A program made the position numbers and the translations under genes. DNA of 64,000 nt from Liolophura sinensis (Eukaryota; Mollusca; Polyplacophora; Chitonida; Chitonidae). Under the pieces are notes generated by a model that did not search any database, had not been told where the DNA came from, and saw nothing but the letters and a program-made list of their open reading frames with translations. The number at the start of each line of letters is the position of its first letter. Position 1 is the stretch's first letter. The stretch covers positions 12,972,017 through 13,036,016 of the forward strand of contig NC_088307.1 of the NCBI RefSeq assembly GCF_032854445.1, read 5' to 3'. This document shows, one piece after another, positions 23,936 through 55,300 of this stretch.

Positions 23936-24463
23936 CTGCTGGTTTGATCCAGCTGTTTTGTCGGTTATCCCGTGACCTTCTGTCACCTTCTGGGCCAAGA
24001 ACTAATTTACAGGTACAATTGTGTAGCGCTTGAACGGCCCCCTCATTGGACGTAGTGATGTCAAGCAGTCATGGCAGAAAAGGCCGTCACAGTTGGTACA
24101 AAATGTGGTGGCGGCTGAGACGCTTGTCTCTTCGCACATTGAGCACATAGGCGTGTTCTCTTCCGTTCTGACACCTGGGTGTATTTTCGCCGCTTTTTCG
24201 CCCAGGTCCCTGTCGACAGGTAGAACGGAAACATCCCCCTGTGTTAGGACGGTGGGTGAGCGACACACAAGGCAGTTAATCAGCTGGGGATTGAAATTGC
24301 TATCCAGGGAGCTGGCTTTATCTTCATCCTCGCTGGGTTTTGACTTCTCAACAAACAGTCTCAGACATTCCCGACAGAAACTATGGTGGCAGGATAGAGA
24401 CACCGGCTCCCGGAAAATATCCGTACCGATTGAGCAACACAGGTCATCTTCCATTGCTTGCAT
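23936..24463 (-). pseudogene. TRIM-B exon 1: damaged RING and B-box 1, no B-box 2
   Basis: The frame starts MQAMEDDLCCSIG. In the paralogues the same motif is CCSIC or ICSIC, so one zinc ligand of the first RING site is lost. The remaining RING ligands and B-box 1 (MCSMCEETS to FKRYT) are intact. A TAG stops the frame at 24002. Beyond it the sequence still aligns with TRIM-A (FLAQKVTEGHGITDKTAGS) up to CAG|GTAAGG, but the roughly 45-codon B-box 2 part is missing. If translated, the product would be a RING-defective peptide of about 153 aa. Confidence 0.85.
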
Positions 24464-24823
24464 GGATTTATGCAATTCTCTGTGTGTGTTTTCTGCGAAC
24501 GGAATATCAGATATATCAGTGTCAGCCTGTAAATCGAGCATCATTATATACCTATACTGAGCATCGATGGTAATTCAAGACCGGTGACATTTGAATTTTT
24601 ACACACAGGCGTGATAAGTTTATCTGAGTTCCAGACGACAACAGGTCACTCAAGTGATTGTATCTAGTGCTGGGATATGAGATTTAACGTTCCCAGAAGT
24701 TTACATACAGTATAAACTGGCAGATAAAAAAAGGGCCCCTGGCTAATAAACGATATTTACCTCTCTAAATTGTCCCCAGAACCAAAGGCCAAACCCTGGA
24801 TAACGGAATATAGTTTATTTATT

Positions 24824-32048: not shown

Positions 32049-32623
32049 CTATGGTCCAGAGGTATTTAAAATATCACAGAGTGCTTGGGGAAGAGTAACC
32101 GAGGCGCCTGTTATTAAGCGAGCAGACGCTGATTTTACATCCGAAATCCAAACGTATGTAGCGAGTGGTTTAGACAGACCACTGACTGAATACATTATGT
32201 GGTTGTTGTCACAGTCCAGGACAGTTAGTGTCCGGTCCTTACAATTCAAATACAGGCCGAGGTGTTGAATTCCTGTATGAGGTCTCCATTGTTTATAGCT
32301 TTGGGTGACTTCGCCACCACAATCATTAGCATTGCACCTTATGCCATCGATGTGGTAATCCATGCTGACATACCATAACTCCAGGCCATAGGCAGGTACA
32401 CTGCAGCCCTCCTCTATAACACCTACATCGCATCTACAGCGACAGTCTGGGGATGTCGGCATAATCCAGACCTCCAACTCCCAATATTGACGTCCAGTCT
32501 TAAAACTACCGTTTGTGACAGCTTCACACCAGCCTGAGTTAGACGTCCAGTTCACCTCTATCATGGTGTCATTGCAAGTTATCTTTACATCGCCATCAGT
32601 CTCGGTGAAATTCAACACCGGTT
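32049..32623 (-). CDS. TRIM-C exon 6: SPRY/B30.2-like domain
   Basis: Acceptor GTTACAG, 2 bases plus 191 codons including the stop. Hallmarks: GRQYWELEV, CDVGVIEEG, LGLYLNCKDRTLTVLD. The end ALCDILNTSGP resembles the DMLNTT end of TRIM-B. Cys-rich stretch CRCRCDVG in the third strand. No PRY segment. Clearly diverged from the SPRY domains of TRIM-B and TRIM-D in the loops expected to contact ligand. Confidence 0.9.
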
Positions 32624-35600: not shown

Positions 35601-38600
35601 TCTCAAACAACGTTAAAACAAGCACCTGTCATTGAAAGTCTGCACCTAGTTATTACCAGTAAAAATTCCACCTCCGCAGAAGACAAAAACTGCTGACAAG
35701 ACTGCTGCACTGTTTCCATTGTCTTCAGTTGCATGTTGAGGCATCTCAAACTCGAGCTGCACTCAAGGTTCCAGTCTGAGTGCTTCTTTCTAACGCTATC
35801 TAAAGAGTTTCTCTTCCAGTTGTTCAGAACTCCCAGAGCTGCAGTGTAGGCATTCTCAATGTCCTTGTAATGAAGTTTTTGATTTGCCTATAAAAAGACA
35901 AAAAATATTACTTTTTTTGAATCCGTATGACTTGTGTGTAAAATTTTTTCCAACGATTTGACGTTATAAATTTGAACACATGGTTAATATTAACACACAT
36001 ACTTAAATTGCATATTTTTGTCCTACAATGCCTCAGATAACAGAGTTGTTATAGGCAAACAGGGAGCGGCGGGAGACACCGTGACGTATTCGGCACGTTC
36101 CCCAAGGCACAAAGCAAACTTACAAAGCGTACCTCATGTATGTTTACACGCTATCTCGGCTCCTAGATAATTTAATTGAGATTACATTGAAAAGAGTTGA
36201 ATTCAAATACGATGAAGTCATTTTTAGATATTTTAAAATCGTTTGACGATCTCGAAGTAACAGACATTTGTTGATGTGAGGGCCATGTATGTCAGATGTT
36301 TCAAAACCATTTCCAGATATCTCAAATCATTTCCAGATATCTCAAATCATTTAAAAGGAAACCAGTGGCCATACATTATGAGAAGTGACGCCATTTGGTA
36401 AAATGAATAAATAATTATGTCTTTAGGCCACATCGGCAATTCTCAGCCAAATTTTGTGGCAACTGTTCTGTAGAAATGGCCATTAAGGCTCCCTGAGTGC
36501 AAGTAGAAATACATTACAAACCATGACTGAAGTAAATATGATCGTTGATGGTGTGGAGGCACTAAACGCCGCTGAGATAATATGAATTTTCTTAACATAG
36601 GAAATCAACCGAATGAAGGGGAATTTCTTGATATCATGATTTATTTCCTGCATTAGACGACAGATTGGCTATTGATGGTGCTTTCAGCCAATCACAGGCT
36701 TTAATTCCACAGTACTTATTCATGAAGAAAACGTCTTCATATGAAGACAGTAGGGGCGGAGCCAAAGCAACTGTGCGCCGAGTGTGCAGACATTGATTGA
36801 CAGGTGACCGACCATGTGACATAACAACGGCTGTTGGGTTGACACACTGACACCAGTGACAGGAAGAGACGGCGTGGCCTTGCATGAAATAGCCAATCAG
36901 TCGTCTAAAACGGATAGAGGTCATTACTTGGAAGTGTGTTTTTATGGTATTCTAGATACGCTAAAAAGAATTACACATATGTGAAGACATATCAACATTA
37001 TGCAATGTCAGGAATAACATAACTATCCATCTTCCGAAAACGTCAAAACGTCCCTTATAAATGCCCTTATGCCCAGAAGGTTTGACAAGGCTTTGGTAAG
37101 ATTTCTTTCTCACCGTCGGAGTATAACACTGACCTTAGTATCATTTTGCAACCGATTAAATCCTGCTATAGCCTTTTGAATTTCTGTTATAATATTTGTT
37201 ACCTTCTTGGTGTTTCTTTCAAATGTCATCTGTAACAAAAAAAAAAAGAAATTTCAATATACAAATACATGCAACGGACAGTATACGTTAGGGTAAAGAT
37301 GCTACAAAAACTTAACTTGTATTCAGAGCGAACGTAGATGCTAGTTCATTAAGAATAAGCGTGTAGCAGCAAATAATCTCACGTTTATGCAGTTTCCTTG
37401 AATGGAAAGTGTGAGTGAGTGCTTGGGGTTTAGCGTCGTACTCAACAATTTTTCAGTCATACGACGACGAAGGAATCATTAGGGTGCATGTAAGTGTAAT
37501 GTGCCTCCTTGATGCAGAACGGATTTCCACCGCTCTTTTATTTAGTGCTGCTTCACTGAGACGACTTACCGAAGGCAAGTAAGCCGCCCCGCCCGAGGCA
37601 TTATACTGATATGGGTCAACCAGTCGTTGCACTATCCCCTTCATGCTGAACGCCAAGCGAGGAAGTTGCAACTTCCTCTTTTAAAGTCTTAGGTGTGAAT
37701 CGATCAAGGATTGATCCTGGATCTACCGGTCCCGAAGCGGACGCTCTACCAACTGTGCTATCCGGGCCGGTTTGAATGAAAAGAATGGCTATATCGATTT
37801 ATTATTAAATGCTAACTTTAAAGAGAACTTGCATTGGCTGTGAAAAAAAATAGAAAGAGATTTGTCTGGTATGAGTCTCAAAAATCCCTTGAGTAAAGTC
37901 TTTTGGTGGCCAACATTGGTTACGTATAACCAATACGTGTTTATACATGGCCTGACATTTGAGTGAGTGAGTGAGTGCTTGGGGTTTAACGTCGTACTCA
38001 ACAATTTTTCAGTCATATGACGACGAAGGAATCATTAGGGTGCATGTACGTGTAATGTGCCTCCTTGTTGCAGGACCGATTTCCACCGCTCTTTTATTTA
38101 GTGCTGCTTCACTGAGACGACTTACCGAAGGCAAGTAAGCCGCCCCGCCCGAGCCATTATACTGATACGGGTCAACCAGTCGTTGCACTATCCCCTTCAT
38201 GCTGAACGCCAAGCGAGGAAGTTACAACTTCCTCTTTTAAAGTCTTGGGTGTGACTCGATCAAGGATTGATCCTGGATCTACCGGTCCCGAAGCGGAGGC
38301 TCTACCAACTGTGCTATCCGGGCCGGTGCCTGACATTTGAACTGATAATAAAAAAAACAGTCAATTTTCCCTAGGTAGCTCGGTTCATGTATTCAGTTTG
38401 CTTTTTTTGTCATCTGGATAATGCTGCACATTCGTGACAAAATCCATGATATGCAAAATACCTTGCTTGTATGGGTACATGTAATCAACCAATGTCTAAT
38501 AGCCTGTGGTGTAAGGCTGTTCTGGTGTTGTGCATCCGCGCGAAATGAAATCAAAAAAACTGTGGTTACCTCTGTTTCCGAACTGTCAATCATGAACATG

Positions 38601-40187
38601 CAATTGACCAATCATAAGCAGTATTGTTGGAAATAGGTCAACCGGATGTCCCAGATATTGGTTACAAATGTTCAATCTCTCGGTGACGTCACAGTTTTTT
38701 TTACCGGGAATGCAATGAAAAGTAACGTTGTCACGAGAAATGGGTGGTGTGACATCGGATGTGTTGAATCCAAGAAAAAAAACTTCAATAACACAAGCTA
38801 CACTGCAATATTTGTTATTACTAATGAAGCTAGTACTAATTAAATGAAAATGTTAGCTAAGGAAACTATATAGTTGTATGTTTACCTGGGCAGATGAGTC
38901 ATGGATGGCAATCCTGTTTTACACAAAGGTCCTAGTGACTGACCGTTAGCTAAATTTGTGATATTCCGCTATTTGTAAACTTCAAATTGTAATTTAATCC
39001 CGTGTTTATCTATACCATTCCATCCGTGTATATTCGTAGTTTCCAGCAAGTAAAATCTGTTTTGTATATATTGTACATAACACCGCTCACCTACCCAAGT
39101 TGTTAACTGTATTCTTAACTTTCCTTGTATATAAGTAGATAGTAGGTGAACTAAACATTGTGTTTTTTTATCTAATGAAGGCAACTGTTGGTGCCAAAAG
39201 CCCGTAATATACCACAATTTACAAGGTTGTCAGAATAAATTCTGTAAGTGATATTAAACAGAATATTTAGTTGAACATATACCAGAATGTTGTACTAAGA
39301 TGATTTTACAGAATACAGTTTCAACACAGTGATTGCATAAACATTAACAACACAATAATTTGTCCAGAATAACATAAAACTTTGATGCATTACTCCAGCA
39401 TTACCTACATGTTCTGTTACCTGTTTTCTTATATTGCATTTTAGAGTGTATTATGGGTGTGTGAGCTTCCCAATGCTAAACGTTTTTGGACCAATGACAC
39501 CCTTGATTGTAGGCGTAGACCTGGTATGAATGTTACCTTAGCTTTCGCGAAAGCCGTCTTTATGTCCAAGCAGCTGTGCTCGGGATGCTCTTCTAGACAA
39601 TCAAGACATACGACATCCTTACACGTGACACAGTAGATGGACAATAGTTGACTGTGCTTGTCACACTCTGACTTGTGTTCTGACTCTGTTTTTATGTCCA
39701 ACATTTGCGAGCTGGTTGGGGTCCGCTGGGCTAAGATCTCGTTTACAGGTTTGACTGTGTGCCGTTTGAACGGTCCCTTCATAGGATGCATTGTTGTAAG
39801 ACATTGCTGACAGAAAAACCCGTCGCAGTTAGAACAGAACATGGCGGCCGGTGACATGGTGGTCTCCTCACACACTGAGCACATTGGGGTGTCTTCTGTT
39901 AGTTTGTCTTGTTGTCCGAAGTAATTCACTTTTCCACATAATTCGGTGTTGACTGGTGGAGCATTTACACCTTCGTCTGTTAAAACAGCGGGTGAGCGAC
40001 ACACAGGGCAGTTGATCTGCCTGCGACTGGATTCAGTGACAGGGGAACTGCTAATGCCTTTTTGATGGCTGGAGTTGCTTTTGTCAGCAAACAGCCTGAG
40101 ACATTCCCGACAGAAGCTATGGTGGCACGGCAGAGACACTGGCTCCCTGAAAATATCCACACAGATGGAGCAGCACAACTCGTCCAT
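32049..40187 (-). CDS. TRIM-C: intact RING-B-box-coiled-coil-SPRY gene
   Basis: Six exons: 40187-39537, 37229-37134, 35887-35657, 35068-35046, 34815-34676 and 32623-32049, all with GT-AG sites and a continuous frame of 572 codons including stop (about 571 aa). Domains: RING about residues 1-65, B-box 1 about 100-145, B-box 2 about 175-207, coiled coil about 215-380, SPRY in the last 190 residues. Zinc ligands are complete. The family's activity would be RING-dependent ubiquitin ligation with target choice by the SPRY domain; partner unknown. It lies head to head with TRIM-D, whose exon 1 is very similar, while the downstream exons are divergent. The upstream candidate exon at 42634-42585 may be its 5' UTR. 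Confidence 0.9.
32790..33440. repeat. 38-bp minisatellite in TRIM-C intron 5, about 15 units
   Basis: The unit contains TGACAACAGCTCATTTGCTC then CACTCAGTCGCTGTATAC. Units alternate TTTGCTCCA / TTCGCCCCA versions, and a block of about three units (CGGTCGCTAAGTACTGACAG) is itself repeated, about 150 bp apart. Confidence 0.9.
34676..34815 (-). CDS. TRIM-C exon 5 (140 bp, linker before SPRY)
   Basis: Acceptor CTCATAG, donor GCAA|GTATGC. Encodes IDAQVTDITDSLKRHE onward to AEEYVA plus one base. Phase identical to the paralogues. Confidence 0.84.
35046..35068 (-). CDS. TRIM-C exon 4 (23 bp)
   Basis: Acceptor TTGCAG, donor ACAG|GTACAT. Encodes GSRELTD plus two bases; the codon completed by exon 5 is Ser. 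Confidence 0.8.
35657..35887 (-). CDS. TRIM-C exon 3 (231 bp, coiled coil)
   Basis: Acceptor TTATAG, donor CTG|GTAATA, 77 open codons from ANQKLHYKDIENAY to SSAEVEFLL. Contains the shared LNNWKRNSLDSVRKKHSDW motif. About 35 of 77 residues equal TRIM-D. Confidence 0.88.
37134..37229 (-). CDS. TRIM-C exon 2 (96 bp, coiled coil)
   Basis: Acceptor GTTACAG, donor AAG|GTCAGT, 32 codons from MTFERNTKKV to LQNDTK. Only 7 of 32 residues are identical to the same exon of TRIM-D. Confidence 0.86.
37410..37771 (-). mobile_element. tRNA-type SINE family 2, full length, copy 1
   Basis: On the minus strand: tRNA-like head GGCCCGGATAGCACAGTTGG (box A), box B-like region near GATCAATCCTTGATCGATTC, body, and a tail with GTTGAGTACGACGCTAAACC ending in CACTCACTCAC. 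Flanked by an imperfect 12-bp target duplication (TTGAATGGAAAG at 37398-37409, TTGAATGAAAAG at 37772-37783). It sits in intron 1 of TRIM-C. Confidence 0.88.
37963..38327 (-). mobile_element. tRNA-type SINE family 2, full length, copy 2
   Basis: Nearly identical to the copy at 37410-37771 and in the same orientation. Flanked by a perfect 13-bp target duplication GCCTGACATTTGA (37950-37962 and 38328-38340), so it is an independent, recent insertion rather than a tandem duplicate. Confidence 0.92.
38341..39536. other. Rest of TRIM-C intron 1, no feature seen
   Basis: AT-rich DNA with short open frames on both strands lacking domains or splice context. Confidence 0.5.
39537..40187 (-). CDS. TRIM-C exon 1: RING, B-box 1, B-box 2
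   Basis: 217 codons from MDELCCSICVDIF to the donor AAG|GTAACA. RING: CSIC, CHH, FCREC, CPVC. B-box 1: MCSVCEETT to FKRHT. B-box 2: ECDKHSQLL to EHPEHS. The ATG used by the paralogues a few codons upstream is lost here through a small deletion (the mRNA reads AGAAGAAATCC instead of AGAAGAATGGC), so translation should begin at ATGGACGAG. The preceding ATG in another frame (in CCATGTAAAC) is followed directly by a stop and could slightly lower initiation. The RING-proximal linker is about 12 residues longer than in TRIM-D. Confidence 0.93.
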
Positions 40188-40657
40188 TGTTTACATGGAT
40201 TTCTTCTGCGTCTGTTCTGTGGAAAAAAGAGTTTCAGGAATAACCGTATCAGCATGTGAATAGAACTTTACTTAACATCAGTATTACTTACAAAATTCCT
40301 TTATCGATTAGAGGACAAAGAATATTTCACAAGAGAAAAAGAGCCGGCAGAATTTCCAAAATGGAATATACTTCTGCTTAACATAGATAGCGGGCTAGAC
40401 ATAACTGACACAAATGTCAATTCACTGAGAGGGGAAGAAGTAATGCATATTCATATTTAATCTCTTTTAATACTGGGGCAGAATTTTATACCTGAACATT
40501 CTGTTTCATATGATAACCATTGTCACCGTGGCCAGCAGAACAGGATGAACGTTGCCCGGCTACAAATGTGTTTACAGGTTCAAATCCACCAGGCGCTGAG
40601 CGTCAGCGACCTTATGTCAGGAGTTTTTTCTTCAGCTATGAGGGGAATTCTCCCCAC

Positions 40658-41285
40658 AAGTTCTCACCTGGGTGAATAGGTTCTCACTTGGGTACACAGG
40701 TTCTCACCTGGGTGAATAAGGCTCTCACCTGGGTGAATAGGTTCTCACCTGGGTGAATAAAGCTCTCACCTGTGTAGATAGGTTCTCACCTGGGTGAATA
40801 GGTCCTCACCTGGGTGAATAGGTTCTCACCTGGGTGAATAGGGTCTCACTTGGGTAAAAAGGTTCTAACTGGGGAAATAAGGTTCTCACTGGGTAAATAG
40901 TTTCTCACCTGGGTGAATAAGGTTCTCACCTGGGTGAATAGGTTCTCACCTGGGTAAAAAGGTTCTCACCTGGGTGAATAAGGTTCTCACCCAAGTGAAT
41001 AGGTTCTCACCTGGGTAAATAGGTTCTCACCTGGGTGAATAAGGTTCTCACCCAAGTGAATAGGTTCTCACCTGGGTAAATAGTTTCTCACCTGGGTGAA
41101 TAAGGTTCTCACCCAAGTGAATAGGTTCTCACCTGGGTGAATAGGTTCTCACCTGGGTGAATAAGGTTCTCACCCAAGTGAATAGGTACTCACCTGGGTA
41201 AATAGGTTCTCACATGTGTGAATAAGGTTCTCACCCAAGTGAATAGGTTCTCACCTGGGTGAATAGGTTCTCACATGGGGTGGAT
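40658..41285 (-). repeat. 20-bp array of splice-donor-like units upstream of TRIM-C
   Basis: About 30 units; plus strand GGTTCTCACCTGGGTGAATA. On the minus strand, the sense strand of TRIM-C, most units read CCCAGGTGAGAACC, which fits the 5' splice-site consensus CAG|GTGAGA. A minority have CTTGGGTGAGAA or other changes. Related but decayed units with the same sense orientation occur before TRIM-D at about 47680-47780, 49480-49560 and 51250-51380. Confidence 0.9.
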
Positions 41286-42584
41286 ACTCACACAATACCC
41301 AAGGCCATGTTCAGGTTCAAAAAGTTCAAGACCCGTAGAAAAGGGAATGAATCATGAAATTCTTGTGGAAACAGATACATGCTCACAGATGTACTCCTGT
41401 GTCAAGACACGATTATTGCATCACGAGAGTTTCCACCCAGGTGTGGACTTTTTTTACCCTGGTGGGGACTTTTTAAACCCAGGTAAGGACTTTTTAAACC
41501 CAGGTAAGGACGTCTTCACTCAGGCGAAAATCTTATCGTGGAGCTAAGAATGTTTTCAACCAGATGGAAATAGCTTTCACTTAGGTGAAATAGCAGCCTT
41601 AGTTTCCGCCAACCATGCTAACGCATGCAGAATTCTGAGCTTGGCGTGAAAGAGCAATCTAATAAATAAACATAAACCAAGCAGACAAATAAATATGTTA
41701 TTAGCGCACATTCTGCAAGTGGAGACAGCCGATATTATACACTCCCGCTATATACCAAGCAATGTTGGCTTAGGAGTGAAGATGTAGGTCAGCATACGCC
41801 TCACTGTTTTGACACAACAGAACAAAATACACGCTTGAATATCAGGTTATGTGAGCAAGGTTTATAATCCACTGGCTGGTTTCTCACACAAACTCGAGGA
41901 TTCATACTTTGTTGTGCGTCATGTCAGCATAATGGGGACTAAGGTACGGCTATGTCCTAAGACCTACATACCTGCTGACAGATCAATGGGGCAGGCGGTT
42001 GACTGAATGGGACAGCTTGGTTTTACCAGGGCGCTTGTAGGCCTATGCAATAGTGGAGGAGTGAAAGATCGGGCTATTCAGTCGGTCTATCTGCTATAAC
42101 ATATTATATGCAAGTCATCACACAGGTAAGCTACACACTTGCACAAAGCTGTGTGTCACCTGAGGTGCTTCTAACATATAATCGCAGGCGTAAAAGATAT
42201 ATAGGAGCGCTGGGTATGTGGTAGACGCACTTATCTTCTGAATCACAGGCAATCTCAACGCCCTTTAACATTGCTTTCTAAAACTGCTAAAAACACAGCT
42301 TTAACGCAATATACGCCCAGTTGCAAGAAGAGGGATTAGCGTCAGAAACAAAATCCAAATCAGAAAAAAATCATCGATGATAATAACATTGTACATTATT
42401 GTTAATGAACGTGGAGACCTCATTCGTGACTCAACTTTATGTCAACTTGGACACCAATTAGACCATCAATTAAATGTCTGACGTGTCACAAAAAATATGT
42501 ACTACCATAAAATCCAAGTGTGTAATATAAGACATAGTGGTTGCAGCATCTTTTAACAGCCATATGTCATGTTATACTCTTTAC

Positions 42585-42634
42585 CTTTTCAGGCACAATC
42601 TCTTGTACTTTACAGCTCGCTAAATCGCCTTCCA
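42585..42634 (-). other. Candidate 5' mini-exon of TRIM-C (50 bp)
   Basis: Bounded on the minus strand by acceptor TTTTCGTTTTCAG and donor AAAAG|GTAA. It aligns with three 50-52-bp segments upstream of TRIM-D that keep both splice sites. In one frame it reads EGDLASCKVQEIVPEK without a stop. Spliced to TRIM-C exon 1 at 40214 or nearby, this frame would not match the ATG frame, so for TRIM-C it would be UTR. No transcript evidence is available. Confidence 0.4.
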
Positions 42635-43214
42635 CTGAAAACGAAAATATTGTCGTCTAAGGAATTCACATGACCTTTGTAAGGGAGATAAGCCACTGAG
42701 GTATTTCCCCTTCATTCATTAACGTCTACGTTGTTTCACACGGTTTTGTTACATCCACTTCATATCCAGCAATATGTGACGTCCAGTGGACGATATGTCA
42801 GCAAAAAAACCTTACAAAATATCAGCAAGGAATAACCTCAGTGAATTCTATATGTGACTTTTGGTTTAGGTATTAAGCGTGTTACATATACCACATTTAT
42901 ACAAAATGATTGAAACGTGTAATTGTACTTCTGTGACCCAAAGCCGTTCTTATAGTTTGTACACAATTTCTGTCGCTAGTGTAACTGGTGTTAAACAGGC
43001 TATTGTAAGCATGCGCGCACTCGTGGTTACCTAGACATTTACTCGTGGTTACCTAGGCCCCCTCTTCGGTCGTACGTGTGAAGGTTTGCCATTACAATGC
43101 TACCACCATAAGGCTAGGCACCGTGATACAAATAAAATTTCCGTAACCATAACGTCAGACATAAATCAATCAAATAAATAAATTAATCAGATAAATCAAT
43201 AAATAAATAAGTGA

Positions 43215-43830
43215 GCCCCGCACCTTCATAGAACCTTGGCGGAGGATGCAACCCACATTTTTATGGAACCTTGGTGGCGGGCGTAAGAGTGAAATTCACA
43301 TCTTGATTGAACCTTGTCGGAGAATCTAAAGTAAAACTCACAGCTTCATGGAACCCTAACGAATGATATAAAAGTGAAACTCACACCTTCATAGATTTTT
43401 TTTATTTTTTTTATTTTGATTGGTGTTTTACGCCGTACTCAAGAATATTTCACTTATACGACGGCGGCCAGCATTATGGTAGGCGGAAACCGGGCAGAGC
43501 CCGGGGGAAACCCACAACCATCCGCAGGTTGCTGACAGACCTTCCCACATACGGCCGGAGAGGAAGCCAGCATGAGCTGGACTTGAACTCACAGAGACCG
43601 CATTGGTGAGAGACTCCTGGGTCATTACACTGTGCTAGCGCGCTAACCAACTGAGCCACGGAGGCCCCCACACCTTCATAGAACCTTTGCGGAGGATGTA
43701 TAAGCGAAACTCACACGATCATAGAGCCATGGCAGAGAATGAAATGAAAATGTGAAACCCACCTTCAGAGAACCTTGGCGGAGGATGTAAATGAGGAACC
43801 CACACGTTTATAGAACCTTGGCGAAATAAT
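43215..43830. repeat. Dispersed minisatellite, unit about 43-46 bp, split by a SINE
   Basis: Units of the form CTTCATAGAACCTTGGCGGA then GGATGTAAAAGTGAAACTCA; same family and orientation as 7846-8885. The SINE at 43396-43668 interrupts it. Confidence 0.8.
43396..43668 (-). mobile_element. Full-length tRNA-type SINE (family 1)
   Basis: Most complete copy in the window: head GGGGCCTCCGTGGCTCAGTT, box B GAGTTCAAGTCC, body, tail TATAAGTGAAATATTCTTGAG and an A/T-rich 3' end. Flanked by a 14-bp duplication CACACCTTCATAGA (43382-43395 and 43669-43682). The same 14 bases belong to the host minisatellite unit, and the array resumes in phase after the SINE. Confidence 0.93.
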
Positions 43831-44352
43831 TACATAAATAAGAATTGATAGTGAAAAGAAAACAGCGACGACATTGTGATAGTTGGCAATCGGTGAAATC
43901 CTTTGTCAGTTTAAACCATGCAGTTAGAACCCTACGTGCACTCTGACTGTTCAGGTATATGCCTAAAGGACAAGACCAACGAATTTCGACTTGGTTTCAG
44001 TTGTTTTAGACCTACATCCATTTAAATCAGTTTTAATATAAAAGATTAATTAACTAAATTCCAAACCGGAAGTGACACTTTTGTTACATGTAAGGAGTAA
44101 GAATATAACATTACTGTCAGCATACACTGTCTTGTAAAATAATTAGTAGTCATGAAACATTACACTGCACAGGCCTGTAACTTGTATGTACAGATCGAAA
44201 CCACTGTGAGCAAGATATGAATTTATGCAGGTTTATATGATCAACAATTAATCAACTGAGGGTACATTATACATCCCCATGATGGACGGACCCGAAAGTA
44301 CAAGTAAATCTACACTACAACTCTGCCTTATCGCCAAACGGTGTGCTGATAG

Positions 44353-44448
44353 TAATGAATTAATCCATTAATCTCTTATATTAAAACTGACTTAAGTGAC
44401 AGTAGTAATGAATTAATCCATTAATCTCTTATATTAAAACTGACTTAA
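44353..44448. repeat. Direct duplication, 44 bp x 2
   Basis: AGTAATGAATTAATCCATTA followed by ATCTCTTATATTAAAACTGA occurs twice, about 52 bp apart, with a few bases between the copies. Confidence 0.88.
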
Positions 44449-44916
44449 CTGGGCGTGAGTCTTATGTTACGGAGCCGACATGGAACCAAGCGAAATTCAG
44501 TCATAATTCGCAGGTCTTGTCTTTTAAGTAATACAAACTTAAACACCCCTTATCACCAAGACAAGGATCACTTCGGTGGCCTAATGGAAAGAACGTAGTT
44601 TACGTTAGTCGGGTCTGGTCATCCCAAAGACTTTAAAATGGTACTTGTTGTTGCCTCATTTGGGGGTGAGCACTCAGAGGCTAGAGCAAGGAACTGGTTG
44701 GCCAGGTGTCAGTATAATGCGATTTTCGGTTCGGCATGATATTTCAATGACGGCTGCAGTGCACTGCACCACTGGGTTGTGGTCTCAAAAGAACTTCAAC
44801 TGTTGACGTAGACGTCTTTTGTATTGCAACGCTTCAATTTTACTTGTTTAGAACTGCTATTTACATATATACACATCATTCCTTTTAATGCCTGTCATAA
44901 AGAGTTTTGGTAATGA

Positions 44917-44917
<1 letters not shown>

Positions 44918-44972
<55 letters not shown>
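44918..44972. repeat. (TA)n microsatellite
   Basis: About 26 uninterrupted TA units. Confidence 0.97.
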
Positions 44973-46381
44973 GTATATAACCATTGGTGTGCCGATTCAT
45001 CATGTATTCACAATTAGCTACCACTGGATTTATTGTTAAATTGAATGCCAAAATATATTGAAAAAGGAGGGAACAATGGCACTTAAAATCACTAGATAAT
45101 GAGGTTGGTTTTGTCCATTTTTTTCGCCAACACGAAAGTCCAACCTTTACGATCTGTCAGCGCGTCGCTATTTGGTGTCATGTTACAAACAGCAAGGATG
45201 ACAACAAGCATATCGAATTTCTCCACGAAGTGCTTTGCTCTTCTGCATACGATTGTACAAACAGGTCATCGAAGAACCCTGGAATTAGTTTTTTTTCAAG
45301 TTTCCAGGCGATTTGGGCCTCAGGAAGGGGTGGCTTTACAGCAAATGACGGAAGAATTTTGTACCCATCAAAAACAGCCATACCCGATCTCGCCATTTTA
45401 AAGCTGAAAGCTACGAGATGTGTACCGCTTAACTCCAAAGGTTTCCACAACAACACCTGCACAGAGTGGTTATAAAATGCTATTGACCGAACTAAAAGCT
45501 GATAGATAAGAAATCTCTGTAAACTAACGCCGACGTCCACATCATGCATGTATTCTTATTGTATACGGCTTTCGACCCCTAATGCATAGAGTGCCCACAA
45601 TAACATGCATAGGTAGTTGTCATCGCATATGGGTGTGAATTTAGAATCCCTCTGGGAATAGAACGATATTTATTGGAAAGAGGGCAGAAATAAAGAATAG
45701 TAAATAAATATTAAATCTAAAGATAAACGCAGGGCACGTATAGTGTAGCACAGGATAAAACTGCGTGTAAAGCCTACCAGACCGTATTTTCCGTGTTGGT
45801 GGAAATGCCTGGACAAAGTCTGAAGTCTGGTCAGAGATGTCAGTGTCATAAACCGGAACGTCAACGTCATCCAATATGGGTTCAAATTGATTTCATTTTC
45901 AAGCTTATACAGGTAAGCTATGCTCAGGTTGGCCAAAAAATGACGATTGGAAAGCGCAGTAGATATATTGTTTATGGTGGATTTATTATTCAAGCCATTA
46001 TTACGTTTCTCAGAAGGCCTCTCGGTTAACATACTGTTTAAACAGGTTATACCCTTTATATAATTAGGACCAGGAGTTAAATCTGGACACTAATCCTTTA
46101 ACTGACAATTTACTGACAAGTCATGCCCAGAGGAGTCTGCCTGTTATGTCATATCATACACTACGCAATAATCAGTTCATCAATTCTGCCTTTCTGTTCT
46201 CTTTAACTAAACCGAGCCTCACATGGCACAATTCTCCTAAGGATGACTTATTTAAACTCGAAATATTGAGATCGTCAATATGAATTTATTCGTTACCGTG
46301 CTTATTCGTTTAGAGTTTTACTAATTCATATGGTTAAAAGTAGCAACATACACGCCCCATAGTGACATGAACTAAGTACAA

Positions 46382-46630
46382 TTAGGAATAAAAATGCAGT
46401 GATGAAAATCTGTGCAAACTATAAGAAGAGCTTTGTGTCACAAAAGTACAATTACACGTTTCTATATCGTTTTGTATAAATGTTCTGCATGTACCACGCT
46501 TAATGCCAAAATCAAAAAAGTTCCAGTTAGAGTTCACTGACGGTATTCCCTGCTGATATTTTGCACTGTATTTGCTGTCATATTCTCCACTGGACGTAAC
46601 ATATTGCTGGATAGAAAGTGGTCCTAACAA
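46382..46630 (-). other. Triplicated open segment, copy 1 (function unknown)
   Basis: A minus-strand frame of 82 codons starting MLGPLSIQQYV. The same frame recurs at 48432-48016 (138 codons) and 50143-49865 (92 codons). The stretch with GTCRTFIQND, ETCNCTFVTQSS vaguely recalls a GPS-type Cys-rich motif, a weak resemblance only. In the inverted homologue upstream of TRIM-C the same frame contains stops, so coding function is doubtful. Confidence 0.2.
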
Positions 46631-46741
46631 AGCAGTGTGAAACTACATGAATGTTAATGAATGAAGGGGAAATAACCCAATGGCTCGTCTCCCTTACAAA
46701 GAACGCTTAAACTTCCTGAATGACAATATTTTCGTTTTCAG

Positions 46742-46793
46742 TCGACGGCGATTTAGCGAGCTGTGACGTAGAGAAGAGATTGTATCTGTAAAG
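46742..46793 (+). other. Candidate mini-exon, copy 1 (52 bp)
   Basis: Acceptor CGTTTTCAG, donor AAAG|GTAAGA. A 2-base insertion (GTAGAGAAGAG against GTAGAAGAG) shifts the frame that is open in the other copies to a TAA. Confidence 0.35.
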
Positions 46794-48543
46794 GTAAGAA
46801 CTGGGCGTGTCCATGTTCGTTAAAGAGAAAAACATTAAGCTGATGGTATGAGTTTTGTACAAGTGTGTAGTTTACCTGTGTGAATACATTTATATGATAT
46901 CTTAGGTAGAATAGATAGACCAATTGAATAACCCGATCTGTCACTCCTCTACTGTTGTATAAGCCTACAAGTGCCCTGGTGAAACCAAACTGTCAACCGC
47001 CTGCCCCACTGGTCTGTCAGCAGGTAGGCCTTAGAAAATCCAAGTCGTTTGTACCTTAGTACCAGCTATAGTACTAGCTATACTTAAATGCAGCACAACA
47101 CAGTAGAAACCATCGATTATGTGTTAAAAACCATGCCGTGAAGTTAGAACCTTGTACACGTAGTTAACCAGTTATAAGTGACGCCTATGTTGACCTACAT
47201 CTTTAGTCCTGAGGTAACAATGTCTGGTATATAGCCGGAGTGTATAGTATCGGCAATCTCCACTTGCAGAATGTGCGCTAATAACATATTTATTGATCTT
47301 TTTGGTTTGTGTTTATTTATTTGCTATTTAACGCCATGCTCAGAGCTTTCCACTCGTGCGTTAGCATGGTTGGAAAAAACTACGGTGGCTGTTTCACCTG
47401 AGTGAAAAGTGTTTTCATCTGGGTGAAAACATCCTTACCTCCATGAGAAAGTTCTCACCTGGATGAAAGAGTCCAGATTGCAGAGAAAGGCATTTTAACC
47501 ACAGATACATGCTGACTATAGTAACGTTACACAAACGGCTTTGACGCAGCCAGGAGTGCATCATCATATGTCTATTGTCACAAGATTTGCTTGATCCACG
47601 CTCTGTTCCAAGGGCCTTGAACTTCTTTGAACCAGAACAATCGGGTTTAGCGAAAGTGTCCACCCGGAAAAGAAACTTTTCACTTAGATGAGAACCTTTT
47701 TACGTAGGTGAAAACATTTTCACAGTGGTGAGAACCTCCTCCACCAGGTGAAAACATTTTCACACAGGTGACAACCTGTGGGGAGAAGCCACGGCATCGC
47801 TAAAGGCGAAACTATTGACATAAATCAGCTGCGAATCGGCGCCAGGTGGATTTGAACCTGCAAACACATTTGTCAAGTGGTCTTGGAAATGTTCAGTCTG
47901 TTCTGCCGGTCCACTTGCCAATGGCCGTTATATAAGGCTGAATGTTCGGATTTTCTCTCTCCAGATGGAGAGAGTAAAAATGGATTAGTTGTGGATATGC
48001 AGTACTTCCTCCTGTCTAAAAGACTGGACATTTGCATAGACTCTGACACGGTGTCATTGTTGCTGTGCTGATGTAGCAAACATGTATCAATAACACAGCG
48101 TCATATATGTTATGGTTTACCGTATGGCTGTAAGGAAATGTCCAGGTAACCACGACTGTGCGCATGTTCGTAATAACCTGTTTACCGGCTGTCACACCAG
48201 GGATAGAAAATCTGTACAAACTAAAAGAAGAGCTTTGTGTCACAAAAGTACAATTACACGTTTCTATATCATTTTGTATAAATGTTCTACATGTACCACG
48301 CTTAGTACCAAAATCAAAATAGTCCCAGTTAGAATTCACTGACGGTATTCTCTGCTGATATTTTGCACTGTATTTGCTGTCATGTTCTTCTCTGGACATA
48401 ACATATTGCCGGATAGAAAGTGGTCCTAACAAAGCAGTGTGAAACTACGTGAATGTTAATGAATGAAGGGGAAGTAACCCAATGGTTTATCTCCCTTACA
48501 AAGATCAATTGAACTTCCTAGATGACAATATTTTCGTTTTCAG

Positions 48544-48593
48544 TCGACGGTGATTTAGCGAGCTGTGACGTAGAAGAGATTGTACCTGTAAAG
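48544..48593 (+). other. Candidate mini-exon, copy 2 (50 bp)
   Basis: Same splice sites as the other copies; open frame DGDLASCDVEEIVPVK after two leading bases. Confidence 0.4.
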
Positions 48594-50347
48594 GTAAGAA
48601 CTGGGCGTGTCCATGTTCGTTAAAGAGAAAAACATTAAGCTGATGGTATGAGTTCTGTACAAGTGTGTAGTTTACCTGTGTGAATACATTTATATGATAT
48701 CTTAGGTAGAATAGATAGACCAATTGAATAACCCGATCTGTCACTCCTCTACTGTTGTATAAGCCTACAAGTGCCCTGGTAAAACCAAACTGTCAACCGC
48801 CTGCCCCACTGGTCTGTCAGCAGGTAGGCTTTAGAAAATCTAAATGTCAAGTCGTATGTACCTTAGTACCAACTATACTTGCACGCAGCACAACACAGTA
48901 AAACCATCGATTTTGTGTTAGAAACCATCCCGTGCAATAAGAATCTTGTACGCGTAGTTAACCAGTTATAAGTGACGCGTATGTTGACCTACATCTTCAG
49001 TCCTAAGGTAACAATGTCTGGTATATAGTCGGAGTTTATAGTATTGGCTATCTCCACTTGCAGAATGTGCGCTAATAACATATTTTTTTATCTGTTTGGC
49101 TTGTGATTATTGATTTGATTGTTCTTTAACGCCATGCTCAGAGTTTTCCACTCGTGCGTTAGCATGGTTGGAAAAAACTACGGTGGCTGTTTCACCTGAA
49201 TGAAAAGTGTTTTCATTTGGGTGAAAAAATTCTTGCCTTCATGATTAAGTTCTCATCTGGTTGCAAAAGTCCAGATGGCAGAGATACGGTATTTTAACCA
49301 CAGATACACACTAATTTTAGTAAGGTTACACACAAACGGGCTTGACACACCCAGGAGTGCAAGTGTGAGCATATGTCTATTGTCCCAAGATCTGCATGAT
49401 CCGCGCTCTATTCCATGGGCCTTGAACTTCTTTGAACCAGAACAAGGAGACGGGTATAGCTAAAATATCCTCCTGGAAGAAAAACTTTTCACCTAGGTGA
49501 GAACCTTTTCACCCAGGTGAGAACCTCCTCAACCAGGTGAAAACCTTTTTCACATAGGCGACAACCTGTAGGGAGGAACCACCGCATTGCTAAAGGCGAA
49601 ACTGCTGACATAAAGCCGCTGTGTATCAGGTGGATATCGCCAGGTGGATTTGAACCTGCAAACGCATTTGTCAAGTGGTCTTGGAAACGTTCAGTCTGTT
49701 TTGCCGGTCCACATGCCAATGGCCGTTATATAAGGCTGAATGTTCGGATATAAAATTCTCTCCAGATAATGACCTACTAAAATGGATTAGTTGTGGATAT
49801 GCAGTACTTCCTCCTGTCTTAATGACTTGACATTTACATAGACTTAGTCGTCTCTAACACGGTATTATTGTTGCTGTGCGCATGCAGTGAAAATGTAGCA
49901 ATAACACAGCGTCATATGGTTTACTGTATGGCTGTAAGGAAATGCCCAGGTAACCACACCTGCGCACATGGTCATATTAACGTGTTTAGCGGCTGTCACA
50001 CCAGGGATAGAAATTGTGTACAAACTATAAGAAGAGCTTTGTGTCACAAAAGTACAATTACACGTTTTAATATCATTTTGTATAAATGTTCTACATGTAC
50101 CACGCTTAATGCCAAAATTAAAATAGTCCCAGTTAGAATTCACTGACGGTATTCCCTGCTGATATTTTGCACTGTATTTACTTTCATATTCTCAACTGGA
50201 CATCACATAATGCTGGGTAGAAAGTGGTCTTAACAAAGCAGTGTGAAACTACATGAATGTTAATGAATGAAGGGGAAATAACCCAATGGTTTGTCTCCCT
50301 TACAAAGATCGCTTGAACTTTCTAGATGACAATATTTTCGTTTTCAG

Positions 50348-50397
50348 TCGACGGCGATTTAGCGAGCTGTGACGTAGAAGAGATTGTATCTGTAAAG
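50348..50397 (+). other. Candidate mini-exon, copy 3 (50 bp), nearest to TRIM-D
   Basis: Acceptor CGTTTTCAG, donor AAAG|GTAAGA; open frame DGDLASCDVEEIVSVK. It ends in phase 0. If joined to the acceptor CCATAG at 51715-51720, the frame would continue NTRRR into the TRIM-D ATG without a stop, so an N-terminal extension or a 5' UTR exon are both possible. Confidence 0.45.
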
Positions 50398-51736
50398 GTA
50401 AGAACTGGGTGTGTCCATGTTCGTTAAAGAGAAAAACATTAATCTGATGGAATGAGTTTTGTACAAGTGTGTAGTTTACCTCTGTGAATACATTTATATG
50501 ATATGTTACAATAGGTAGACCAATTAAATAGCCCGGTATGTCACTCCTGTACTGTTGTATAGGCCTACAAGTGCCCCAGTAAAACCAAGCTGTCAACCGC
50601 CCGCCCCATTGGTCTGTCAGCAGGTAGGCTTTAGAAAATCTAAATGTCAAGTCGTATGTACCTTAGTACCAACTATACTTGCACGCAGCATAACACAGTA
50701 GAAACCATCGATTTTGTGTTAGAAACCATCCCGTGGAATAAGAATCTTGTACGCGTAGTTAACCAGTTATAAGTGACGCGTATGTTGACCTACATCTTCA
50801 GTCCTAAGGTAACAATGTCTGGTAAATAGTCGGAGTGTATAGTATCGGCTATCTCCACTTGCAGAATGTGCGCTAATAACACATTTATTGATCTTTTTGA
50901 TTTGTGTGTATTTATTTGATTGCTTTTTAACGCCATGCTCAGAATTTTCCACTCGTGCGTTTGCATGGTTGGAGGAACTTGCGGTGGCTATTTCACCTGA
51001 GTGAAAAGTGCTTTAATGTGGGTGAAAACATTCTGGTCTGCATATTAAAGTTCTCACCTGGATGCAAAAGTCCAGATTGCAGAGAAAGGCTATTTAAGCA
51101 GAGATGCATGCCAGATATAGTAAAGTTACACAAACAGGCTTGACGCAGCCAGGAGTAGAAGTGTGATCATATATTTATTGTCACAAGATTTGCATGATCC
51201 ACGCTCTATTCCAAGGGTCTTCTTTGAACCAGAAGAAGGCCTCGGGTATAGCATGAGTATGCACCCAGGTGAGAATCTTTTCAGGACAGGTGAGAACCTT
51301 TTCACCCACGTGACAACCTTTTCACACAGGTGAGAACATTTTTACACACGTGAGAACCTTTTCAACCAGGTGACAACCTTTGGTTAGGACCCACGGTGTC
51401 GCTAAAAAACAAACTTCTGACATAAAGCCGCTGCGTATGCCGTGATTGTAGTCCACCCATTTACAGTTGCCACTTCTCTTGATGATAGGAAAAGTACTTC
51501 CCGAGGCCTTGTAATATCGAATGTACAAAGTGTTTTTGTTAAATTCTTTCTCACTAGTCTCCTGTTTGGAGCATTTGCTAGATCTTTTTCCCTTATGTCG
51601 TCTTCTTCGTGTTCTAGTCGATAAGGCAATTTTTTTCCCCTTGTGTAGTGGCACTACTGATTTCACGTAAAGCTCTGTTCTCATGCTGACACTAATATAC
51701 CATAAACTCTTTTTTCCATAGAACACTCGCAGAAGA

Positions 51737-52384
51737 ATGGCTAAATCCATGCAAGCAGTGGAAGAGGAGCTGATTTGCTCCATCTGTGTGGATATTTTTC
51801 GGGAGCCGGTTTCTCTACCGTGCCACCATAGTTTCTGTCGAGAATGCCTGAGACTGTTTGCAGATAAGAACAACCCCTCTGTTATTGAATCCAGTGGCCG
51901 ACAGATCAACTGCCCTGTGTGTCGCTCACCCACTGTTTTGACGGACGAGGATGTAAATGCTCTCCCAGTCAACACCGAATTGTGTGGAAAGGTGGAGGAC
52001 TTCGGACAACAAGACAAACTAACAGAAGACACCCCAATGTGCTCAATGTGTGAGGAGACCAGCATGTCACCGGCCGCCATGTTCTGTTCTAATTGCGACG
52101 GGTTTTTCTGTCAGCAATGTCTTACAACAATGCATCCTATGAAGGGACCGTTCAAGCGGCACACGGTCAAACCTGTAAACGAGATCTTAGCCCAGAGCTC
52201 TGTAGAGGAATCGGAAATTTTGGACACAAAATCTGAGTCAGATTACAAGTCAGAGTGTGACAAGCACAGTCAGTTTCTGTCCATTTACTGTGTACCTTGC
52301 AAGGACGTGATCTGTCCTGGTTGCCTTGGAGATCATCTTGAACACAGCTGTCTGGACTTGGAGACAGCGGTAGAAGAAAATAAG
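51737..52384 (+). CDS. TRIM-D exon 1: RING, B-box 1, B-box 2
   Basis: 216 codons from MAKSMQAVEEEL to AAG|GTAAAA. RING ligands C14, C17, C29, H31, C34, C37, C59, C62. B-box 1: C102, C105, C117, C120, C125, C128, H133, H142. B-box 2: C174, H177, C185, C188, C193, C196, H200, H203. An acceptor CCATAG ends at 51720, 16 bp before the ATG, so an upstream non-coding exon is expected. There are 44 consecutive residues identical to TRIM-C between MSPAAM and EILAQ. Confidence 0.95.
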
Positions 52385-55300
52385 GTAAAAGATAAACAGA
52401 TGTAAATTCTACGCTTCCACTTGTCTCTTTTTTCAAATGCGATGACTGAGAGGAAAAAGGCTTATTTTCAGATTCTAGAAATCATCCATATTTTCGTACT
52501 AATTTTCTAAGAAAGTAGATCATGCTCCATTAACCGTTGCTGAAGGATAAATAAGCTTCGCCATGGTGCTTCGCCACATGCCAGGGGGCGTGTAAATTGC
52601 TCCTATTTATGTATTTACATGAACTGTCAGAATAAAACCTTGACTGAGGTATATGGAACAGCGGTCAACGCTGTTTTGATTTTACTCTCTTTGTTAGAAA
52701 GTGCCCAACACAGTCTTCCACTTGGAAGTGGTTGGATAATCTAGCAGAAATTTATTCTATGTGAGCGTGCATGTTCGGTTGTATAGAGTATATTCCAGAA
52801 ATATTTCTGAAGACCAATGTGATTGACAGCTTCACGGACATATGGTCCCCTATCATAATAATATCTGTTATCATCTCCTGATTTAATTTCTAATACTGGG
52901 GACAATTTCTTCATTTTTCCCTTAGACAAAATACACATCAGAAATTAAGACGGTCTCTCTAGCCAACCGGTGGCCAATTTAATTTAATGTTGAAAAATAA
53001 GATTTTTTCTGTAATCCTTTAAGCTATCACGATCTGGCCCCCAGTGTTGTATCTCGTGTTACCATTTATACGATTCTGTGAGTGGAGGAAACTGTGTTTT
53101 CCACATGATTCTTGTGGTGGAAGGCAATCTGTGTATAGTACACCTCAAGTAAGACTGTACAAAAGAACGGCTGTTGACTGCTATAGGTTCCGGAACAATA
53201 GATTTGGGAAACCTTGAAAATCCTGTATTGGAGAATGGGACTGATTGGATGTGACGTTGACATGGCGAATGGAAAGCAAATCCCTTAACTTAAAGGCCAA
53301 AACTCACTCGCCCACGTATAATACCATATGTACATTTATTAGTAGCCGGTATATGTGTGTATACTATATTGGGAATTTTTTTTATTATATAGGCGACATT
53401 TGAGGACAAAGCTGGCCAACTGAAAATAGTCATGGAGTCAGTAGAAAAGGGTTTGGCGAGATGTGGAGAACTGTGTCAAATTATCAAGGTTTGTATTTTT
53501 GTTCTCAAAATAAGATACAAATATCATGGGTCGTGTTGTGGTATTCAAAATAGAAAAATAATAAGTAGTTTTGGAAAATTTTAAAAGTTATAAAGAGTAA
53601 ATGCTGGTTGACAACTCAATGTTGCTTTGTTGTTGCGTTGTGTTCATTTTATCATTGGCAGTCTGAACATGATAACTATTTCGCGTGTGTTTGGGTGTAA
53701 TTTTATGATAATTTGAATCTCATTGCGTTTGTATTTATGTGTAAATGTACGAGTTACGAGTACAGTTACCGAGTTGCTGTAACCAGCGGACTGGCCTCAG
53801 TTTCGAGCTTTCCTGGGTGGCGGACGGTGCTGTGGGGTGGACTGTCTTGTGTGGCGGACTGGATGGCAGTTTGCCCTCAGCGGTGGACTGTCCTGTGTGG
53901 CGAACGGTCTTGTGTGGCGGACTGACATTAGTGGCGGAGTCACCTGTGAGGCGGATGGTCCTGTGTGGCGGATTGTCCCGTTTGGCCGTTTTCCCTCTGT
54001 GGCGGCCTGTCCTGAATGTCGGCCTGTCCAGTGTGGCAGACTGTCCTCAGCGGCGGACTGTCCTCAGCGGCGGACTGGCCTCAGTGGCGGACTGTCCCAT
54101 GTGGCGGGCTGTCCTGTGTGGCGGACAGTCCTGTGTGGCAGGTTGTCCTGTGTGGTGGACTGTCCTGTGTGGCGGACTGACCTCAAAGGCCACCGAAAAT
54201 AGTAAATGCTGCGTGTATACGTTGCTGCTTACTTGGTAGTTTCTAAGCCATAAACTTGAGCAATTACCATCCTACTGCTAACTCGAGCAGTACCGGAAGT
54301 GAGGATATCAACTTGGGTTTATTGTTGACAGGAAAATCAAGATGTTCATTTAAAGTCAATAGAGACCTCATACACAACAGCTCTGACGACTTTGAACAAC
54401 TGGAAGGCAAACTCTGAGGCGGCTGTAAGAATGAGGCATTCCAGCTGGAGTGTTGAATGTGGTGCATGGACCAAAGCCCTAGACATGCAAATCGATGGCA
54501 TAAAAATGTCACAGGGGTCGTGTAAGAACTTAATATCTTCCCAGGACGTAAAGTTTTTACAGGTAATACAGTCATGACAATGATCTTCGAATACAAATCC
54601 TTGACTACAAATACATGTAGTATAATTTTTTTTAAATTTTGTGTTCATTTTAGAAGCGATTTTTTCCAAATACAAGAAACTTCTGTGACCTAGTGTTTAA
54701 CGTGTTACTGCAGCATAACAGCCCGGTGCCTTGCACCAATGCTGTCTGGTGTGAGTTCAACACCAGTTCATGCGGCTTCCTATAAGAACGTATGTCTGTA
54801 ACCTGCAGTTGGTCGTGGGTTTCCCCGGGCTCTCTCCGGTTTCCTGCCACTATATTTCTGGCCGCTATTGTATAATTAGAAGACTCTTGAGTACGGCGTC
54901 AAACACCAATCAAATCGATAAATACATACATAAATTTGGCAAATTTGAACATTTTAATGCAGATTGCTGATGTGCTTTTGTCAGTTTCTGCCAAGGCACA
55001 TTTGAATGTTTTGTAAAGATTTTGTTTTCGAAATAAAGGTAGGCTTAAAAAACTTGTGTACGACTAGAACATAAAACAAGAATTAAATTTGCTTTGTGTA
55101 CAGGTAAAACAAGAGTTATGGAGGGTTGATCATGGTTTGTAAAGCAATCATTGGCATGAATTAGTGAATGATGAAAAGAGTCACCCGGATAAGCGTGAAA
55201 TATTGCCGCAGTCGCGGTAATTGTCCATTCGCATCAACAAAAAATGAATAAAGTATATCGAAATCTTACATTTATTGTACGGATAGCGGGGCTTAGTATG

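Follow-up and report, generated by a model that had tools for sequence, protein, structure and literature searches.

Two TRIM-type genes of the chiton Liolophura sinensis, TRIM-C and TRIM-D, raise the question of how neighbouring genes come to share a nearly identical piece of their RING/B-box exon while their recognition domains differ strongly. Both lie in a 64,000-nucleotide stretch of contig NC_088307.1 (the window, C13:12972017-13036016; positions below are those of the window unless a contig is named). They stand head to head, with the ATG of C at 40187 on the minus strand and that of D at 51737 on the plus strand, and the 11.55 kb between the start codons agree with the original prediction made from the sequence (about 11.5 kb). 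Exon 1 of four TRIM genes lies inside the window, namely those of A, B and C on the minus strand and of D on the plus strand; beyond it, all on the plus strand, follow D2 and D3, which are tandem copies of D at a spacing of about 31-33 kb, and then E. From our comparisons we conclude that the shared piece is most probably a short tract of gene conversion linking two neighbouring TRIM genes of old divergence, within a family that shows a larger, oppositely polarised homogenisation of the two gene ends. We give a probability of about 0.83 to the explanation that C and D are old paralogues in which a piece of about 200 nt of exon 1 later underwent ectopic gene conversion, besides an older transfer or duplication of their upstream regions.

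A near-identical core in exon 1

The translations of exon 1 of C and D contain the predicted run of 44 identical residues (MSPAAMF...EILAQ). At the nucleotide level, the two exons form an inverted match of 320 nt at 93% identity (39726-40045 against 51876-52195), with flanks of 76-82%. The near-identical part is limited to a 197-nt core over B-box 1, preceded by a shoulder of intermediate identity (Table 1); just beyond the edges of the core, C and D differ at three of the four preceding bases and at 13 of the 19 that follow. The segment of maximum contrast in exon 1 is 97.4% identical inside and 78.0% outside, which none of 2000 column permutations equalled, and third positions alone give p = 0.0005. 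In the alignment, D, D2 and D3 all have the C-like core.

Synonymous and non-synonymous divergence (dS and dN) were estimated by the Nei-Gojobori method, the 23-nt exon 4 lying outside the measured set. Along exon 1, dS between C and D is 1.16 over the first 39 codons compared (15.0 differences at 25.4 silent sites), 0.45 over the next 40 codons, which form the shoulder (10.0/29.4), 0.079 over the 65 codons of the core (3.0/39.8) and 1.18 over the last 64 codons (23.7/39.8). It is 1.62 in exon 2, 1.03 in exon 3, 0.78 in exon 5 and 0.90 in the SPRY exon. Silent differences in the core depart from those in both ends of exon 1 with a Fisher p of 3.6e-8. At silent sites, the early half of the RING has diverged as far as the remaining gene, as has B-box 2, and the claim of a near-identical RING/B-box exon therefore stands for the core over B-box 1 and falls for these two parts. 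Uniform synonymous divergence, which would have left purifying selection as the only cause of the similarity of exon 1, was not observed (0.079 in the core against 0.78-1.62 elsewhere outside the shoulder). Such sharp silent-site borders inside exon 1 favour gene conversion, one of the two origins originally proposed. The accompanying forecast of a dS near zero in part of exon 1, with a sharp border, and of high values downstream agrees with our estimates for exons 2, 3 and 5 and the SPRY exon; the forecast of a value near zero upstream does not.

The 3' exons are as dissimilar as predicted: 7 of the 31 residues compared on the translations are identical in exon 2, 35 of 75 in exon 3 (46.7%, tblastn), and the SPRY exon of C is 40-42% identical to those of the D copies. 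Intron 1 gave no BLAST match between C and D at word size 7, again in line with the prediction; a global alignment imposed on its first 500 bases carries no information (identity 0.767 over 318 aligned bases with 366 gaps, against 0.719 over 381 bases with 240 gaps for an arbitrary pair). The dS of the core between C and D (0.079) is close to that between D and D3 (0.082), which would place the event at about the time when the D copies spread.

The shared upstream region

The DNA upstream of exon 1 had been described as homologous in inverted orientation, and we found this homology to reach about 43043 on the C side, some 2.9 kb before the start of C, and 46404 on the D side. D carries three tandem upstream units at a spacing of about 1.8 kb against one region in C; D3 apparently has two. 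The Kimura two-parameter (K2P) distance between C and D is 0.20-0.23 in the distal and middle blocks and 0.27 over 158 aligned bases just before the ATG, and the D units differ among themselves by 0.07-0.09 substitutions per site. The upstream homology is thus real and, at about 0.2 substitutions per site, older than the core.

The distal block closes, in C and in all three D units, with a conserved AG that is followed by about 50 nt and a GT, and an AG lies shortly before the ATG in both genes (15 nt in D); from these signals, the region is predicted to comprise a promoter and a leader exon. When C 40360-43060 was searched in 609 Mb, it matched C, D, D2 and D3, and the other matches lay in or beside the minisatellite or were short and weak. 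The genome searches skip very common words, and match counts are therefore lower bounds. With matches so confined, an origin of the region as a transposable element is not favoured. Antisense open frames are present at the D upstream units (48016-48444 and 49865-50191), and no frame of at least 100 codons is listed at the matching place in C.

Phylogeny and possible direction of transfer

Segment trees were built from 17 sequences, comprising the seven of the cluster and ten others, out of 20 exon-3 loci, for which exon 3 had already been fetched. The core rejected a tree that groups D with A, B and E without C (approximately unbiased (AU) test, p = 0.0125; Kishino-Hasegawa test, 0.022), and no other segment did so (shoulder, AU 0.137). 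For exon 3, the grouping of C with D was not rejected either (AU 0.32). The exon-1 segments favour C with D and the SPRY trees favour D with A; in the SPRY protein tree of 76 sequences, C has the longest branch and falls outside a group of A, B, E, the D copies and C13_9781004 (95/82).

Measured against A, D differs at 31 of 41 silent sites in the core but at 28 of 73 in the ends of its exon 1 (p = 0.0002), the core being the more distant part; the same contrast for C is not significant (p = 0.11). This faintly suggests that D received the tract, with C perhaps as the donor. An A-like nature of the ends of D exon 1, considered from the dS at the 5' end (0.38 for A-D against 1.16 for C-D), was dropped because the trees of these ends lean towards the opposite arrangement; silent differences pooled over the sequence outside the tract (159/288 for C-D against 117/303 for A-D, p = 7e-5) still point to an A-like D.

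Proposed history

We propose that TRIM-C and TRIM-D are old paralogues, placed head to head, with a silent divergence of about 1 over most of the coding sequence. Long after they had split, ectopic (non-allelic) gene conversion would have carried about 200 nt between their first exons, possibly from C, along with some 120 nt of a less identical shoulder that precedes this piece. An older transfer or duplication may have provided both genes with related upstream regions, the predicted promoter and leader exon. A similar process at a larger scale could have produced the block of 11 kb shared by D and D2, covering upstream units and exons 1-3, with SPRY exons that diverged. A likely consequence would be that zinc-finger and upstream sequences are interchangeable between genes and recognition domains drift apart. 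The tract with its borders, its absence from the other genes of the cluster, the silent divergence of each exon and an upstream homology limited, within the reach of the search, to C and the D copies are direct observations. From them we infer conversion as the molecular event, and likewise its direction, the promoter and any benefit; selection for such a layout would be a further hypothesis.

Several points weigh against this history. The case rests on silent divergence, and values near 1 come from few sites that are near saturation. The core is fairly alike also between B and E (0.86) and between A and E (0.83), as is generally so within the A/B/E group. Different sister groups for C and D outside the tract are not proven: the ends of exon 1 slightly prefer C with D (AU 0.115 for the alternative of D with A/B/E), and the SPRY exon does not reject that pair (AU 0.193 for DNA and 0.301 for protein). 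Since the shoulder and the upstream blocks differ in age from the core, at least two events are needed. Dating and assembly rest on one assembly of one species.

Alternative explanations

A recent inverted duplication without conversion, by which exon shuffling would have set one module of promoter plus exon 1 before two recognition modules, is unlikely. It would explain why the head-to-head genes have the upstream region and exon 1 in common, the introns not and the 3' exons hardly, and why exon-1 segments prefer C with D whereas SPRY trees prefer D with A. A single event should, however, have a single age, and the distances run from 0.20-0.27 upstream through 1.16, 0.45, 0.08 and 1.18 along exon 1. 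Both ends of that exon are about as diverged as exons 2, 3, 5 and SPRY, and this second origin offered by the original prediction, a recent duplication of the ubiquitin ligase (E3) module with its upstream region, is not borne out. An old duplication of the module, followed by conversion, is possible.

Purifying selection alone, with constraint on B-box 1 mimicking youth, appears very improbable. RING and B-box residues are conserved across the family, and the early RING is indeed alike in C and D through purifying selection, as its dN of 0.057 at a dS of 1.16 indicates. In the core, the silent sites themselves are nearly unchanged between C and D, yet about 31 of 41 differ between A and D. 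Between A/B/E and C/D/D3 the identity of the core is 0.65-0.70, no higher than in most other parts, and in 60 genes of the C2 branch of the wider family (see below) its third-position identity is 0.761, against 0.768, 0.803 and 0.797 in the other three parts of exon 1. The core is therefore not intrinsically frozen; constraint fails where a conversion tract fits. Constraint on silent sites, for example from a splicing or RNA element, would need to act in C and the D copies only. An assembly or phasing artefact is slightly less probable still. The D-D2 pair, at 99-100% identity over most of 11 kb, does resemble a collapsed or mis-joined haplotype, but misassembly does not readily yield a C-D core with five differences in 197 nt inside two clearly different exons, nor its presence in all three D copies.

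The D-D2 block and other possibly homogenised patches

D and D2 are alike over about 11 kb, from 13016300 to about 13027300 of the contig (window 44284-55284; D2 copy at about 13047600-13058900), which spans the upstream units and exons 1-3. Twenty of the 22 pieces of 500 bases are 99-100% identical, one is 98% and one 95%; D2 has about 230 extra bases between exons 2 and 3. The left flank is 91-97% identical, the right one 74-96% through the minisatellite and SPRY exon, and the 3' flank 95-99%. Exons 1-3 contain no silent differences at 208 sites, against 12 at 158 sites in exon 5 and SPRY (p = 3e-5), and the SPRY dS is 0.09. This is the layout envisaged in the original prediction, in a pair that lies partly outside the window. 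The associated idea, that ligase function stays uniform as target recognition diversifies, fits D-D2 better than C-D; for the latter it holds at most in part, because conversion would have covered B-box 1, and purifying selection accounts for the similarity of the early RING. The block may be a nested homogenised block or an assembly effect. Differences among D, D2 and D3 are not enriched at the 44 hypervariable SPRY codons of the wider family (Fisher p = 1.0, 0.33 and 0.23).

Exon 1 of A (4900-5580) and of E (C13:13128756-13129429) share a patch over alignment columns 456-613 (95% against 78% identity, one of 2000 permutations as extreme), which is perhaps another conversion tract. Elsewhere in the family, third positions reveal a segment at p < 0.01 in 9 of 141 near exon-1 pairs, where 1.4 would be expected; these pairs share genes and are not independent.

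Reversed polarity in the C2 branch

The wider family was represented by 84 exon-1 and 75 SPRY places, drawn from 157 and 111 matches with the omission of many fragments, weak matches and the cluster itself, and 69 genes could be paired. Leaving out the genes on contigs C13, C11 and C6 gave a set of 60, and the loci of the C2 branch, the main one of the family, lie on contigs C2, C4, C12, C76, C101 and C188. For 12 genes of this branch for which exon 3 had been fetched, the median dS is 0.405 in exon 1 and 0.406 in exon 3 but 0.056 in the SPRY exon, where dN is 0.119. Four-fold sites at conserved residues likewise show 0.218 differences per pair in exon 1 (26 columns) against 0.047 in SPRY (41 columns). 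In the C2 branch, homogenisation at silent sites is thus seen in the SPRY exon and not in the E3 exon.

Across the 60 genes, the 44 SPRY codons with the most varied amino acids have a pooled ratio of non-synonymous to synonymous proportions (pN/pS) of 3.7, against 0.91 in the other 147, the former value being inflated because the codons were chosen for amino-acid variety. Within these hypervariable codons, one letter makes up at least 95% of the third base in 30 of 44, of the first base in 12 and of the second in 4. Targeted hypermutation of the SPRY exon was considered and is not favoured, since the third base is mostly uniform. Along contig C2, genes that lie farther apart differ slightly more in exon 1 (rho 0.12, a value reached by 4 of 1000 permutations), and no such trend is detectable for SPRY (rho 0.08, 126 of 1000). 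Ranked by silent distance, exon 1 and SPRY point to the same closest gene in 7 of 71 cases, a ranking made noisy by the tiny SPRY distances. In ten genes, identity is 0.83-0.94 over the 540 bases before the SPRY exon and 0.79-0.95 over the 300 after it, and the initial 500 bases of intron 1 reach 0.81-0.89; in similarity, the sequence flanking the SPRY exon does not clearly exceed the beginning of that intron.

We take it that, in the C2 branch, SPRY exons have been swapped or made uniform among distant genes, with diversification at selected codons, and that exons 1 and 3 keep older histories. A broader proposal, which we hold tentatively and with the odds somewhat against it, is a repertoire of two cassettes. 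A 5' cassette (upstream units, RING/B-box, coiled coil) and a 3' SPRY cassette would each be homogenised separately by ectopic conversion, the former locally, as in the C-D tract and the 11 kb of D-D2, and the latter between genes megabases apart and on different contigs, with about 44 SPRY codons driven apart. This proposal is slightly weakened because the SPRY exon is not set apart from its flanks and the choice of codons inflates their pN/pS. If true, it would mean that the arrangement found in zebrafish NLR-B30.2 genes arose a second time, in an invertebrate-type TRIM family.

Comparison with known systems

Teleost finTRIM genes are reported to encode a RING, two B-boxes, a coiled coil and a B30.2 domain, to have undergone a large expansion and to show positive selection in B30.2 (PMC2657112). 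The same report describes a RING/B-box (RBB) exon with a recombination breakpoint detected by the genetic algorithm for recombination detection (GARD), coiled-coil exons of 96 and 234 bp, and B30.2 in the last exon (PMC2657112). This exon order is common to finTRIM and the chiton genes, and the 96- and 231-nt exons of C and D are, in length and position, placed like the finTRIM coiled-coil exons. The finTRIM family differs in being a vertebrate one, and the chiton exon 3 has 231 nt and is followed by a 23-nt exon; here, moreover, a tract with its borders and silent divergence is described between two given genes.

Young primate TRIM genes on chromosome 11 are clustered in inverted segmental duplications, and gene conversion was suspected there and judged not extensive; one breakpoint falls between RING and B-box 2 in the first coding exon (PMC3228819). 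Those genes are young, whereas here a short young tract is shared by paralogues with a silent divergence of about 1. In zebrafish NLR-B30.2 genes, the published report describes conversion that differs between effector and B30.2 exons, with low silent divergence of B30.2 across groups, high dN/dS and positive selection (PMC4852459). This pattern resembles the C2 branch; the zebrafish system is a vertebrate one with NACHT instead of RING/B-box, and in the chiton the SPRY exons of C and D are not homogenised. No paper on such a pattern in an invertebrate TRIM family was found among those listed in an open-licence library, which is not proof of absence.

Our analysis separates three causes that a description as 'same E3 end, different recognition end' lumps together, namely purifying selection in the early RING, a short and probably recent conversion over B-box 1, and an older shared upstream region. 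The wider family is a natural experiment, in that the effector and recognition exons of its immune-type genes appear to have been homogenised independently and in opposite directions in two branches. How large innate repertoires keep function while diversifying thereby becomes a testable question.

Gene models and other features of the locus

C and D are each complete and in frame, with six coding exons, as read from the splice sites: exon 1 with the RING and two B-boxes, exons of 96, 231 and 23 nt, a fifth exon and the SPRY exon (Table 1). The N-terminal RING exceeds the Pfam cut-off in both (zf-RING_UBOX, 38.4 bits in C and 38.3 in D; cut-off 25.2), as do two zf-B_box stretches after it in each gene. 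The SPRY exon of C alone gave no Pfam match. The structure model of the D SPRY, of modest confidence (predicted local distance difference test score, pLDDT, 64), still gives PRY-SPRY fold matches, and a profile of D, B and C matches TRIM25 and TRIM5 chains. C and D are thus TRIM-type genes with a C-terminal PRY/SPRY, for which a ubiquitin ligase role is predicted.

Table 1. Coordinates of the features of TRIM-C and TRIM-D in the window.
Feature	Position	Strand	Basis or remark
Core tract in TRIM-C exon 1 (B-box 1 and linker start)	39726..39922	-	5 differences in 197 nt to D; dS 0.079 over 65 codons
Core tract in TRIM-D exon 1	51999..52195	+	Contrast segment test, dS, Fisher test, controls
Tract shoulder in C, intermediate	39923..40045	-	123 nt, identity 0.85, dS 0.45
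Tract shoulder in D, intermediate	51876..51998	+	123 nt, identity 0.85, dS 0.45
Upstream region of C shared with D	40412..43043	-	Distal block 42581-43043, middle block about 41520-42150, 20-bp minisatellite 40660-41279
Upstream unit 1 of D, homologous to C upstream region	46404..47947	+	
Upstream unit 2 of D	48133..49835	+	
Upstream unit 3 of D	49937..51433	+	
TRIM-C exon 1 (RING, B-box 1, B-box 2)	39537..40187	-	Begins MDELCCSIC; Pfam RING and B-box matches, translation, alignment
TRIM-C exon 2, 96 nt	37134..37229	-	Borders read from sequence; tblastn
TRIM-C exon 3, 231 nt	35657..35887	-	Borders read from sequence; tblastn
TRIM-C exon 4, 23 nt	35046..35068	-	AG/GT borders, frame kept
TRIM-C exon 5	34676..34815	-	Borders read from sequence; tblastn
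TRIM-C exon 6, SPRY	32049..32623	-	Full-length matches of about 40-52% identity to family SPRY exons; no Pfam match alone
TRIM-D exon 1 (RING, B-box 1, B-box 2)	51737..52384	+	Pfam matches
TRIM-D exon 2, 96 nt	53393..53488	+	Borders read from sequence; tblastn
TRIM-D exon 3, 231 nt	54332..54562	+	Borders read from sequence; tblastn
TRIM-D exon 4, 23 nt	60892..60914	+	AG/GT borders, frame kept
TRIM-D exon 5	61339..61469	+	Borders read from sequence; tblastn
TRIM-D exon 6, SPRY	62986..63563	+	Pfam SPRY 35.1 bits (cut-off 26.3); PRY-SPRY fold matches of modest model

Just before the start of C (40188-40210), an in-frame TAA stands where D has CAA, so that the open start of C is the ATG matching the eighth codon of D. 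The SPRY exon of TRIM-A lies just beyond the window edge. Exon 1 of TRIM-B (24002-24574) has one stop and loses similarity before B-box 2, and exon 1 of TRIM-E (C13:13128756-13129429) has an early stop and a frameshift; exons 2, 3, 5 and SPRY are open in both genes. A partial SPRY exon lies 3' of each D copy (C13:13045491-13045772, 13080777-13081055 and 13112155-13112463), the first two being followed by DNA 94-96% like the upstream region of C.

Long minisatellites occur within the TRIM genes at 14880-19306 (52 bp), 19824-21957 (29 bp), 32722-33423 (37-38 bp) and 56440-60102 (units of about 19 bp), and it is possible that they aid recombination. Intron 1 of TRIM-C contains two similar repeat copies (37400-37780 and 37970-38330) with a tRNA-like end, which we take to be of the short interspersed element (SINE) type.

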